From contig DATLZR010000126.1 in assembly GCA_035573895.1 (NCBI GenBank), positions 1 to 49,198 of the forward strand: a stretch of DNA of 49,198 nucleotides, given 5' to 3'. The notes beneath the pieces were generated by a model. The model worked only from the letters and a program-made list of their open reading frames with translations. It did no database searches and was not told the origin of the DNA. The stretch is from Blastocatellia bacterium (GTDB lineage Bacteria; Acidobacteriota; Blastocatellia; HR10). Each line of letters opens with the position of its first letter. Position 1 is the first letter of the stretch. Positions 2 to 9,629 of this stretch are shown here, one piece after another. The position numbers and the translations under genes are program-made.

Positions 2-3000
2 CGGGGCATCTTCTCCGCTCCCGCCGAGGTTTTCCCTCTCGCTGCCGATGCAACAGCAATTGCTGTCGGGCAGCTCGACGAGAAGTACGAAAACGATGTG
101 ATTGTCGCTTCGGGCTCCGAGCTTGTCCTCATCTCCGGGCACGATCCTCTCCGAGTCGCAGCTGGATCCGGCGAGGCTGTGGCGCGGGTGTATCGTCGCT
201 CTTTTCCCTTCGAGATTCGCTCGCTCGCGCTGGGATATTTTGGGCCGAGGCGAAACTCACCGATGGACATCGCTTTGCTCGGCAGCGACGGGTCCATCCA
301 TTTTCTGACCTCGCCGACGGAAGCCGATGAGAGCGGCGTGTCCTTCCCTCTCGAGCAGTGGTCCTTCGTCACGTTTTCGTTCGATCACCCGCTGGGAATG
401 GGACCAGATCGCTCGCCTCTCTTTCTGCGGGCCAAAGTCTCCAGTCGTCCGAGCGATGATCTCATTCTCTTTGACGAAGCCGATTCTCAGATTCACATCC
501 TGACGCCTCAGGGCGATGGGTCCGTCCCGATCGCTTCTGCCGACGGTGATCCGGAGGGAAATGTCACTCGACGGGAACGTTCGTTCTCAGTGGTGAGTCT
601 GGATGAAGTAGCCGATCCTCCGATTGCTGCTCTGACGCTGCGATTAAATGCCGACGCGCTTGGTGATCTCGTGATCCTTCACGAGCGCACGATGACTCCA
701 ACGGTGGTTCTCACGGCCGCTCCCCGGAGATTCACGGTGACGACGACCAACGACAGTGGCGTGGGTTCGCTCCGTCAGGCCATTCTCGATGCCAATGCCA
801 ATCCGGGAGCCGATACAATTGCCTTCAACATCCCGGGAAGTGGCACGCGCACAATCGCCCTCACCTCACCGCTGCCCAGCATCACTGAAGCCGTGACCAT
901 TGACGGAACAACACAACCGTCCGGACGGGTGGAGATCAACGGAGATCGCGCCGGTCGAGCGGCCACGGGCTTGATTCTGGCCGGGGGGAATATCGTTGTC
1001 CGAGGACTGACCATCACCCGATTTCACTACGATCCGGTGAAGCTTCTGGCCCTGGATTTCATCGGAGCGGGCGGCAGCGCCATTCGCATTGACTCGAGCA
1101 ACAATATCGTTGAGGGCAACTTTCTCGGCACCACCGCCACCGGCGCTACGGATGCCGGGAATGATCTGGCCGGCGTACTCGTCACGGGATCGAACAACAC
1201 GATTGGGGGGACGCGCGATACGGCACGCAACATCCTCTCGGGGAATCTCGTCGGCGTGGGCTTAGCGACGAGCGGGGCGACGGGGAACCAGGTGATCGGC
1301 AACTACATCGGCACCGATCCCAGCGGAACGACGGCGATTCCGAACTCCGCCGGCGTCGTCATCCTCGGCGCGTCGGGCAACACCATCGGTGGGACGGCTA
1401 CAGGAGCCCGCAACGTGATTTCGGGCAATCGCAAGGCTCCTCCGCTGGCGAACCTTCCTCTGGCTGGTGGCGTGGCGCTCATCAGCTACCAATCGTTCAC
1501 CGGCACGTCGGGCAATCTCATCCAGGGCAACTATATCGGTCCCACGCGCGCGGGCACAGCGGCGCTCGGGAACGGCGTGACCAACGGGCGCATTCCCGGT
1601 GCCGGCATCTTCATCGGCAGCGCGACCAATAACACGATCGGAGGAACGACGGCAGCCGCCCGGAACATCATTTCCGGCAATAACGGCTATGGCATCGTCC
1701 TCGGCACGGCCAACGGCGACGGGGCCAGTGGCAACGTCATTCAAGGAAACGCTATCGGTACTCAGGCCGACGGTCGTACAGCGTTGAGTAATACCTCTCA
1801 TGGCCTTTTCATCACGGCGTCCTCCAGCGGGAACCTCATCGGCGGCACCGATCCCGGTGCCGGAAACATCATCGCGTTTAACGGGGGCGCCGGTGTCGTG
1901 GTGGAATCCGGCACTCGAAACGGGATTCTCGCCAATGTGATCTTTTCCAATGAGCGACTGGGAATTGATCTCGGAGGTAACGGTGTGACGCGCAACGATT
2001 CCGATGATCAAGATGCGGGGGCCAATGATCTGCAGAACTTCCCGGAATTGATCGTCGCCGCCTCGTCGAGCAGTCGCACCACTGTGCGCGGACGCCTGAC
2101 GGGTGCCGCCAATGCCACGTACACGCTGGAGTTTTTCTCCAACACCAACTGTGACCCCTCACGCTTTGGCGAAGGCGAGAGCTTCGCCGGTTCCGCTCGC
2201 GTGACGACGGACGCCTCAGGCACGGTCAATTTCACCGTCACGCTCACTCCCGTTCTCACGGCGGGACGATTCCTCACCGCCACGGCGACCGATGCCGCCA
2301 ACAATACGTCCGAGTTCTCGCCGTGCCTCGAAGTGGTGCGAACGGGGCAGCCCGATATCAACGTTCCCACGAGTCTCGCCTTTGATCGCGTCACGGTGGG
2401 TCAGACGGCGGAGCGCTCCCTGCCGGTGGCCAACGACGGGGATGCCAATCTGGTGATCACCAGCCTCTCGGTGGACAGCCCTCAGTTTTCGGTCGTCACG
2501 TCGGGATTGCCGCTGACCATCGAAGCGGGAGATCAACGCACCATCACCGTCCGTTTCAACCCGACGGTGGTGGGGAATCACTCCGGGCAATTGACGATTA
2601 CGAGTAACGATCCCAACGAATCGCGCACCGTGGTCGAGTTGACCGGCGAAGGCATCCCGACAGCGCCGGAGATCGAAGTGACGCCGAGTGCGCTCGACTT
2701 CGGCACTGTGACGCCCGGGCGCACAAAGGAGTTAACGCTCACCCTGCGCAATGCGGGGACGGCCGCGCTGCGCGTCACAACGCTGGCGCTGGAGAGTTCC
2801 GGCAGTTCGTTCACCCTGGTTTCTCCGGCGGCTCCTTTCGATCTTGCTCCTTCGGCAGAGCGGTCTGTCGTTGTTCGTTTCGCTCCCACCGGCCCGGGGG
2901 AGCAGACCGACACCCTCGTGATCGTCAGTAATGATGCCGATGAAGCTACCGTGCGCGTTCCCCTCACCGGCGTGGGCATGCCCCGCACGTTGAGCATTCT

Positions 3001-3628
3001 CGGCAGCGAAGCGGCTCCCGGAGCCCAGGTGACGGTTCCGGTGATGCTGAGTGACGGGAGCATGATCTCGGCGTTGCGATTCACCATTACCTTCGATAAG
3101 GCCGTTGTGTCGGTGCCGATGCCTGAAGCTGTCGCCGCTGGCCCACTCTTACCCCAGGGGTTCTCCTTGAGCGCCAACGTCAGCGTGCCCGGACAGGTCA
3201 CGGTCCTGATCACGCCGCCGCTCCAGACGCCATTGCCGACGCTTCCTCCGGACAGCGGGGCCGTCGCCATGATCACTTTTCAAATCGCCTTCACGGCTCC
3301 CGGAGGCACGCAGACTCCACTGCGATTGGCTTCGGCTTCGGCCTCAGATCCACAGGCGCGCGGCCTCTCCCTCGCGCTCAAGGATGGAATGATCGCCATT
3401 AGCGAGGTGCTTCCCGGTGACACCACTCAGGATGGACAAATCAACGAGCAGGACGTTGTGCGCCTGATCCTTCATCTCACCGGCGAGAGTCCGCTTACGG
3501 GGCGGGCCCTTCGGGCCGCCGATACCAATTGCGATGGAAGAGTCACAGAACAGGACCTCGTCCGCCTTATTCTCCATCTGACGGGCGAGCGGCTGCTGTC
3601 GCCCAGTTGTTCCACTCCGCCGTCATGA
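2..3628 (+). CDS. Secreted beta-helix/cohesin/dockerin protein (5' end missing)
   Basis: The frame is open from the left edge, so the N-terminus lies outside the window; at least 1208 residues are present. Nucleotides 2-710 encode FG-GAP/VCBS-like repeats. From about 730 a CSLREA-type entry motif (SLRQAILDAN) leads into a right-handed parallel beta-helix to about 2000, with repeated NTIGGT and ARNIISGN turns. An Ig-like segment follows (2060-2340), then two SPD-2/Hydin-type 'choice-of-anchor D' repeats (2347-2980; FDRVTVGQT and LDFGTVTPG). A cohesin-like domain (2985-3400) and a C-terminal type I dockerin (3413-3590) complete it; the dockerin has two calcium loops, DTTQDGQINEQD and DTNCDGRVTEQD. 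Known architecture of this kind is extracellular adhesion or surface assembly. The specific ligand is unknown. A cohesin and a dockerin in one chain could allow self-association, which is inference. Confidence 0.85.
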   Translation, partial: RGIFSAPAEVFPLAADATAIAVGQLDEKYENDVIVASGSELVLISGHDPLRVAAGSGEAVARVYRRSFPFEIRSLALGYFGPRRNSPMDIALLGSDGSIHFLTSPTEADESGVSFPLEQWSFVTFSFDHPLGMGPDRSPLFLRAKVSSRPSDDLILFDEADSQIHILTPQGDGSVPIASADGDPEGNVTRRERSFSVVSLDEVADPPIAALTLRLNADALGDLVILHERTMTPTVVLTAAPRRFTVTTTNDSGVGSLRQAILDANANPGADTIAFNIPGSGTRTIALTSPLPSITEAVTIDGTTQPSGRVEINGDRAGRAATGLILAGGNIVVRGLTITRFHYDPVKLLALDFIGAGGSAIRIDSSNNIVEGNFLGTTATGATDAGNDLAGVLVTGSNNTIGGTRDTARNILSGNLVGVGLATSGATGNQVIGNYIGTDPSGTTAIPNSAGVVILGASGNTIGGTATGARNVISGNRKAPPLANLPLAGGVALISYQSFTGTSGNLIQGNYIGPTRAGTAALGNGVTNGRIPGAGIFIGSATNNTIGGTTAAARNIISGNNGYGIVLGTANGDGASGNVIQGNAIGTQADGRTALSNTSHGLFITASSSGNLIGGTDPGAGNIIAFNGGAGVVVESGTRNGILANVIFSNERLGIDLGGNGVTRNDSDDQDAGANDLQNFPELIVAASSSSRTTVRGRLTGAANATYTLEFFSNTNCDPSRFGEGESFAGSARVTTDASGTVNFTVTLTPVLTAGRFLTATATDAANNTSEFSPCLEVVRTGQPDINVPTSLAFDRVTVGQTAERSLPVANDGDANLVITSLSVDSPQFSVVTSGLPLTIEAGDQRTITVRFNPTVVGNHSGQLTITSNDPNESRTVVELTGEGIPTAPEIEVTPSALDFGTVTPGRTKELTLTLRNAGTAALRVTTLALESSGSSFTLVSPAAPFDLAPSAERSVVVRFAPTGPGEQTDTLVIVSNDADEATVRVPLTGVGMPRTLSILGSEAAPGAQVTVPVMLSDGSMISALRFTITFDKAVVSVPMPEAVAAGPLLPQGFSLSANVSVPGQVTVLITPPLQTPLPTLPPDSGAVAMITFQIAFTAPGGTQTPLRLASASASDPQARGLSLALKDGMIAISEVLPGDTTQDGQINEQDVVRLILHLTGESPLTGRALRAADTNCDGRVTEQDLVRLILHLTGERLLSPSCSTPPS

Positions 3629-7664: not shown

Positions 7665-8717
7665 TCAGGGGAGGACGGAAATCGTTCCCGGAGGCCCCTC
7701 CGCAATCTCTCCAATGACGGCGGCAGCCGGCGTTTTCGCTCGCTGGAGGGCACCGATCAGCGCTTCGGTTCGATCCGGCGCCACCGCAATGAGCAGACCA
7801 CCAGAGGTTTGGGCATCGCACAGGACGAGCTGAGCGTCAGGGGTGATGGCTTCATGCCAGGTGACGAACTGGCTGAGGTAACGATGATTGTTTCGTGTGC
7901 CGCCGGGAACGACGTCCTGGCGGACGAGGTCCCAGGCCTCAGGCAAAACGGGCACGCGCGAGAGCCAGACGCGTGCGCTCACCCGGCTGGCCACGAGCAT
8001 GTTACGCAGATGGCCGAGGAGACCGTAGCCGGTGACGTCGGTGGCGGCGTGAACGCCTACCTCTCGCATCGCCCGAGCCGCGGAAGCGTTGAGCGTCGCC
8101 ATGAGCGCGATGACTTTCTCCTCGGTTTCCCGGCTGATGACCTGACGCTTAATTCCGGTCGTGATGATTCCGATGCCGAGCGGTTTTGTCAACACGAGCT
8201 GATCGCCGGGCCGCGCCGTCGCCGTGGCAATGATGGCCGAGGGGTGGGCGACGCCGACAACGGCCAGTCCGTATTTCGGTTCCACATCATCAACGGTATG
8301 ACCGCCCAGAATGGGCACGCCGGCCTCCCGCGCTTTGTCGGCTCCGCCGCGCAAAATCTCACTCAGGATGCGCAGGGGCAGCTTCTTCGAGGGAAATCCG
8401 ACGAGATTGAGGGCCACCAGCGGATCAACCCCTTTCGCATAGAGATCGCTCAGCGAGTTCGCAACAGCAATCGCGCCGAAGGCATAGGGGTCATCCACCA
8501 CCGGTGTGAAGAAATCGGTCGTCAGCACCAGAGCGGTTGTCTCGTTGAGCAGATAGACGCCGACATCGTCGGAGCTGCCCGCTCCGATGAGCACGCGGGG
8601 ATCCTCCACCGGGGTGAGAGTGGCCAGAACCTCGACCAGGTCCTGCTGACTCAGCTTACACGCTCAACCGGCCCCGTGACTGAGCATGGTCAATCTGATG
8701 TCTTCCGGTGTGTTCAC
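7665..8717 (-). CDS. selD: Selenide, water dikinase, itself a selenoprotein
   Basis: SelD makes selenophosphate from selenide and ATP, the selenium donor for Sec-tRNA and selenouridine. The uninterrupted frame starts only at 8609 and lacks the catalytic N-terminus. Reading upstream past an in-frame TGA (8666-8664) restores it: GTG at 8717 with GGGAGGAAA just ahead, then IRLTMLSHGAG-U-ACKLS, the position where other SelD proteins carry Cys or Sec. This gives 350 residues, the normal length. Later features include DFFTPVVDDPYAFG, LGGHTVDD, ATDVTGYGLLGH and DAQTSGGLL. A SECIS-like hairpin follows the UGA. pdxJ and a glycosyltransferase lie upstream on the same strand. selA, selB and tRNA-Sec are not in the window but are predicted to exist elsewhere. 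Without Sec insertion the product would be a 17-residue peptide. Confidence 0.93.
8625..8645 (-). promoter_or_regulatory. Bacterial SECIS-like hairpin in selD
   Basis: On the minus strand, CAGGACCT pairs with AGGTTCTG (8 bp, one G-T wobble) around the five-base loop GGTCG. The stem begins 18 bases after the UGA. A GGUC-type apical loop at this distance is what SelB recognises in the known E. coli fdhF element, so this is the probable insertion signal. Confidence 0.75.
8664..8666 (-). other. selD: Selenocysteine codon (UGA) of selD, residue 18
   Basis: The complement of TCA at 8664-8666 is TGA, in frame 17 codons after the GTG start and just before ACK. It lies in the conserved glycine-rich catalytic loop, where the residue is Cys or Sec in known SelD proteins. 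No frameshift is needed to join the two parts. Confidence 0.92.
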
Positions 8718-8810
8718 GCTTTCCTCCCTCGGCACAGCCGAAACAGATGGTCATCCACTCCCCTGTCGCGGCTGCGCTCTTTCACATCGAACGTGACAGT
8801 CTACGTGATG

Positions 8811-8869
8811 GGGCGTCGGCTTTCCAGCTCGCGCCGGGTTGCCGACCAGAAAGTCCACGCTCCTCATTG
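8811..8869. repeat. Dispersed GC-rich hairpin repeat, copy 2
   Basis: The region between pdxJ and selD contains GTCGGCTTTCCAGC and, after a gap, CCGACCAGAAAGTCCACGC followed by TCCTCATT. The last part closely resembles the end of copy 1 near 3725-3745 (GGAAAGTCCGCTCTCCTCATT). The arms GTCGG and CCGAC are complementary. Confidence 0.5.
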
Positions 8870-8870
8870 A

Positions 8871-9629
8871 TCAGCGCACCCGACGGATCAGTTCGACCAT
8901 CTCCCGCACGGCCCGTTCCAGGCCGACCAGCACGGCCCGCGCGATGATATTGTGTCCGATGTTGAGTTCCTCGATCTCGTCAATGGCGGCGATGGCCCGA
9001 ACGTTCCGATAGGTCAATCCGTGACCGGCGGCCACGCTGAGTCCAAGCGAACGAGCCCGACGCGCCGCTTCACGGATACGCTCGCACTCCTGCTGTCCGC
9101 GAGCCGGATCATAAGGGATCGCTCGACGAAAGAAAGGGGACGGCGGGGTCGTGTAGTCGGCGTAGACGGCGGTGCAGATTTCAATTTCCTGTGCTCCCGT
9201 GGCCCGTGCCGCCTCGATCTGATCGGCCACCGGATCAATGAAGAGGCTGACGCGAATGCCCGCTTCCGTCAGCCGTTCAACCGCACGAGCCAGCTCGCGT
9301 CCGCCTTTGACGACATCGAGTCCGCCCTCGGTGGTGATCTCACCGGGATTTTCCGGGACGAGCGTCACTTTGTCCGGTTTGACCTCGCGGGCGATCTGCA
9401 CCATCTCGTCGGTGGCGGCCATTTCGACATTGAGAAAAGTCGTCACCATCTGGCGGAGGAGTCGAACGTCCCCGTCCTGAATGTGGCGGCGATCCCCACG
9501 AAGGTGAATGGTGATGCCGTCAGCTCCGGCCAGCTCACAGATCATTGCTGCCATGGCCACGCTCGGCTCGATATGCCGTCGCGCCTGGCGAACCGTTGCG
9601 ACATGATCAATGTTCACATTCAGCCTCAT
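8871..9629 (-). CDS. pdxJ: Pyridoxine 5'-phosphate synthase
   Basis: 252 residues. PdxJ condenses 1-deoxyxylulose 5-phosphate with 3-amino-2-oxopropyl phosphate to pyridoxine 5'-phosphate in the DXP-dependent vitamin B6 pathway. Family signatures are clear: [12 protein letters not shown] at the N-terminus (about 5-16), [16 protein letters not shown], the [20 protein letters not shown] segment, FIDP, and the C-terminal [10 protein letters not shown] and [12 protein letters not shown], which bind phosphate and close the barrel. GGGGGGAAG precedes the ATG. It is on the same strand as, and 72 bases below, the glycosyltransferase gene, and 153 bases above selD; the repeat in that second gap may separate transcription units. 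Confidence 0.96.

Follow-up and report, generated by a model that had tools for sequence, protein, structure and literature searches.

A selD gene with an in-frame UGA at its catalytic position and a shifted bSECIS-like hairpin in a Blastocatellia bacterium

The window analyzed here, the whole 49,198-nt stretch of contig DATLZR010000126.1 from a Blastocatellia bacterium (GCA_035573895.1), carries a selD gene on its minus strand whose full selenocysteine (Sec) reading frame extends from a GTG start codon (8715–8717) to a TGA stop (7665–8717, −; 350 aa) and contains a UGA at codon 18 (8664–8666, −). From position 8717, the minus strand reads GTG AAC ACA ... GGG GCC GGT TGA GCG TGT AAG, so that the UGA falls on the codon of the catalytic Cys, in the motif GAGUACK. 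With the UGA read as Sec, the frame comprises 351 codons from the GTG to the stop and encodes 350 residues, with U as residue 18. The sequence-only reading had proposed this frame, a GTG start with a good ribosome binding site, and a plain ORF call from 8609 that misses the catalytic N-terminus; all three points were reproduced. The plain call covers 7665–8609 (−; 314 aa) and lacks residue 18, while a putative ribosome binding site, GGAGG (8723–8727, −), is located 5 nt 5′ of the GTG. The GTG aligns exactly with the ‘MAETERIRLTQ’ or ‘MSETERIRLTQ’ starts of relatives, whose start codons share its column (‘MAETERIRLTQFSHGAG*ACK’ vs ‘VNTPEDIRLTMLSHGAG*ACK’), supporting this start. It is plausible that the gene would be mis-annotated as truncated; naive gene calling removes the catalytic N-terminus from the SelD of this acidobacterial lineage. 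The region directly upstream (8718–9629) holds pdxJ (8871–9629, −) on the same strand, after a gap of 153 bp.

The encoded protein matches the NCBIfam selD model TIGR00476 with 375.4 bits (cut-off 125) over model positions 1–310 of 311. U18 aligns with the catalytic Cys of the E. coli-type SelD structure 3u0o (SHGAGCGCK) and with the corresponding Cys of the Aquifex-type structure 2yye. In an alignment of 13 SelD members, the Sec/Cys column is invariant; Lys21, Asp50/Asp51, Asp68, Asn87, and Asp91, which we take to be the catalytic Lys and the ATP-site residues, are likewise invariant. Across 149 SelD loci, the position of codon 18 is occupied by TGA (84), TGC (40), or TGT (25), and by nothing else.

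An 8-bp hairpin, CAGGACCU-GGUCG-AGGUUCUG (8625–8645, −), starts 18 nt after the UGA, as had been noted from the sequence; its apical loop GGUCG lies at 8633–8637, 26 nt after the UGA. Its energy is −10.4 kcal/mol, and the MFE of the folded segment is −19.7. The published bSECIS model specifies a loop of 3–9 nt with a G in loop positions 1–2, a stem of 4–16 bp, a spacing of 16–37 nt, and an MFE of −7.5 or lower (PMC13188914). The selD hairpin (5 nt with GG, 8 bp, 26 nt, −10.4) satisfies all four constraints. When a simple hairpin test was applied to the 149 SelD loci, a model hairpin was present in 69 of the 84 TGA genes and in 0 of the 65 Cys genes, and this contrast is decisive. The folding energy after the UGA was 2.0 s.d. 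better than that of synonymous recodings for the nine closest relatives and 1.7 s.d. better for all 43 TGA genes, compared with 0.1 s.d. for the Cys homologues.

The hairpin might nonetheless be a coincidence of GC-rich codons, with SelB using another structure near the UGA. Consistent with this explanation, the stem pairs almost invariant coding sequence, with one one-sided change and zero double changes among the six species of the family, and 15 of the 84 TGA genes fail the simple test. However, in each of the six family members the hairpin energy beats that of synonymous recodings (p = 0.052 for the selD of this genome alone and 0.024–0.034 for the five relatives), and no hairpin passing the model occurs in the Cys homologues, which makes such a coincidence improbable. 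The TGA at the catalytic codon, combined with the hairpin contrast between TGA and Cys genes, instead indicates that the selD product is a selenide, water dikinase with Sec as catalytic residue 18, a reading to which we assign a probability of roughly 0.97.

If the TGA came instead from an error in sequencing or assembly, or from a nonsense mutation, the gene would be a Cys-type SelD or a pseudogene, with a truncated protein translated from the internal GTG at 8609. The assembly is indeed fragmented (184 contigs), and a plain ORF is present downstream of the UGA; however, five further species of the family share this TGA, as do three of the same order and dozens more. Conservation also extends over the rest of the frame, which is intact, and a product truncated in this way would be without both the catalytic residue and the conserved N-terminus. 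Retention of the TGA codon across species thus already refutes this explanation. We found no point in favor of reading the UGA as Trp, or of its general suppression, and this idea has next to no likelihood, given that selD itself terminates at TGA, that no internal TGA interrupts selA, selB, or the other matched conserved genes, that homologues carry Cys and never Trp at the position, and that the genome encodes a complete Sec machinery.

That machinery had been expected from the Sec reading of selD, and all of its parts were found in this assembly, which is 97% complete. Contig 5 carries selA (596.6 bits, cut-off 267.9), contig 86 carries selB (356.8 bits, cut-off 242.25), and contig 49 carries a tRNA-Sec with anticodon TCA (UCA) (73.8 bits, gathering 47). 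By analogy with the SelD family, SelB carrying Sec-tRNA-Sec would bind the hairpin just 3′ of the UGA, so that Sec would be inserted instead of termination, yielding a presumably active enzyme. SelD would then make the selenophosphate that SelA would use to form Sec-tRNA-Sec; because SelA needs selenophosphate for this step, SelD would depend on its own product.

The expectation of further selenoproteins also held for at least one gene, encoding a peroxidase-related AhpD/CMD protein (G000:C105:5268-5804, −; TIGR01926, 181.8 bits). Its TGA lies in the motif CFYU at the expected Cys and is followed on the 3′ side by the hairpin ACGGGGA-GGA-UCUCCGU, and an in-frame TGA is present in most of its relatives from related genomes. 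AhpD-like CxxU selenoproteins are already known (PMC1088965). Some relatives contain two or three AhpD/CMD genes with in-frame TGA. Three Molybdop_Fe4S4 proteins showed no internal TGA of the formate dehydrogenase type in the matched stretch or the translated part inspected, and no SelW-type (Rdx) selenoprotein was found in the genome. A match of a large protein of the window (98-3628) to the OS_HP2 (seleno)protein model was rejected, as it scored 28.4 bits against a cut-off of 100 and fell in a choice-of-anchor domain region. The Sec reading of selD supports the use of Sec by this acidobacterial lineage.

SelD was detected in 54 of 58 close genomes, with exactly one TGA in 43 of the 54; of the other genes, ten are Cys versions, all in one sister family (f6), and the last is interrupted by the end of its contig. 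The genomes with Cys-SelD keep selA (10/10) and selB (4/4 tested), and three genomes of the class without SelD (G050, G055, and G057) lack selA and selB as well. In a sample of the phylum, 261 of 396 genomes carry SelD, with a single TGA in most among the matches listed. Among prokaryotic selenoprotein families, SelD ranks second in how widely it is distributed (PMC13188914), and an Acidobacteriota genome in which three selenoproteins were known has previously served as a benchmark (PMC12013277). The sequence-only reading, which regarded selenoprotein SelD as little described in this phylum, therefore overstated its rarity. Being common in the class, and in the phylum too, the Sec-SelD reported here is a well-known kind of gene with ordinary biology, and the wider value of the finding is modest since the family is already widespread. 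The f6 Cys-SelD genes (L029–L038) carry the motif RAGCAAK and have a Planctomycetaceae SelD as their tree neighbor, so replacement by transfer is possible. Several Acidobacteriota genomes (L050–L065) contain two SelD genes, one with a TGA and one stop-free in a frame of ~750 aa; the latter is probably the known oxidoreductase–SelD fusion.

The one fresh point of the analysis is the relocation of the hairpin. Measured from the U of the UGA, the loop starts at 29 nt in the six species of the family and at 36 nt in most other class members, so that the hairpin of the family is shifted ~7 nt upstream relative to the site that most of the class conserves. Covariation is seen in hairpins elsewhere in the class: the class-wide hairpin GCUCAG-GUU-CUGAGC has five pairs with compensatory changes, altered on both sides. 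This hairpin is broken in the family studied here (46% of cells paired), and the hairpin of the family is broken in the rest of the class (56% of cells paired). In the family, the pairing partner of the AGGUYCU stretch (QVL) is an AGGACCU upstream of it; most of the class instead pairs the CAG and CUG that flank GU-N with each other. Such shifts recur across phyla. The three registers require at least 11 changes on a 100-sequence SelD tree, a count that is only indicative because the tree was built quickly and has many weak branches, and the register is the single best hairpin of each sequence. We tentatively propose, at somewhat less than even odds, that the selD bSECIS moves among a few discrete positions (loop ~17–20, 26, and 33 nt after the UGA) and stays functional by switching pairing partners within one coding segment (DL..QVLS). 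The relocated hairpins offer natural variants for probing how far SelB tolerates changes in bSECIS position. In the tree, the SelD studied here groups with those of Methylomirabilota and Latescibacterota (weak support, 83) and apart from the Sec-SelD of most other class families; this placement suggests that the class may hold at least two SelD lineages.

The Cys-SelD of f6 is a full-length protein ~55% identical to the Sec-SelD described here, from genomes that contain selA and selB, but it differs in having a Cys codon and no bSECIS-like hairpin that passes the model. Relative to the bSECISearch consensus, the selD hairpin satisfies the published constraints but occupies a register unlike that of most relatives, its loop lying 26 nt after the UGA compared with 33 nt in the SelD of most of the class. 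With the SelD selenoprotein family (TIGR00476), the gene shares the predicted catalytic Sec, the bSECIS just downstream, the Sec machinery, and a full-length match; only sequence detail differs, here the GTG start and the motif GAGUACK.
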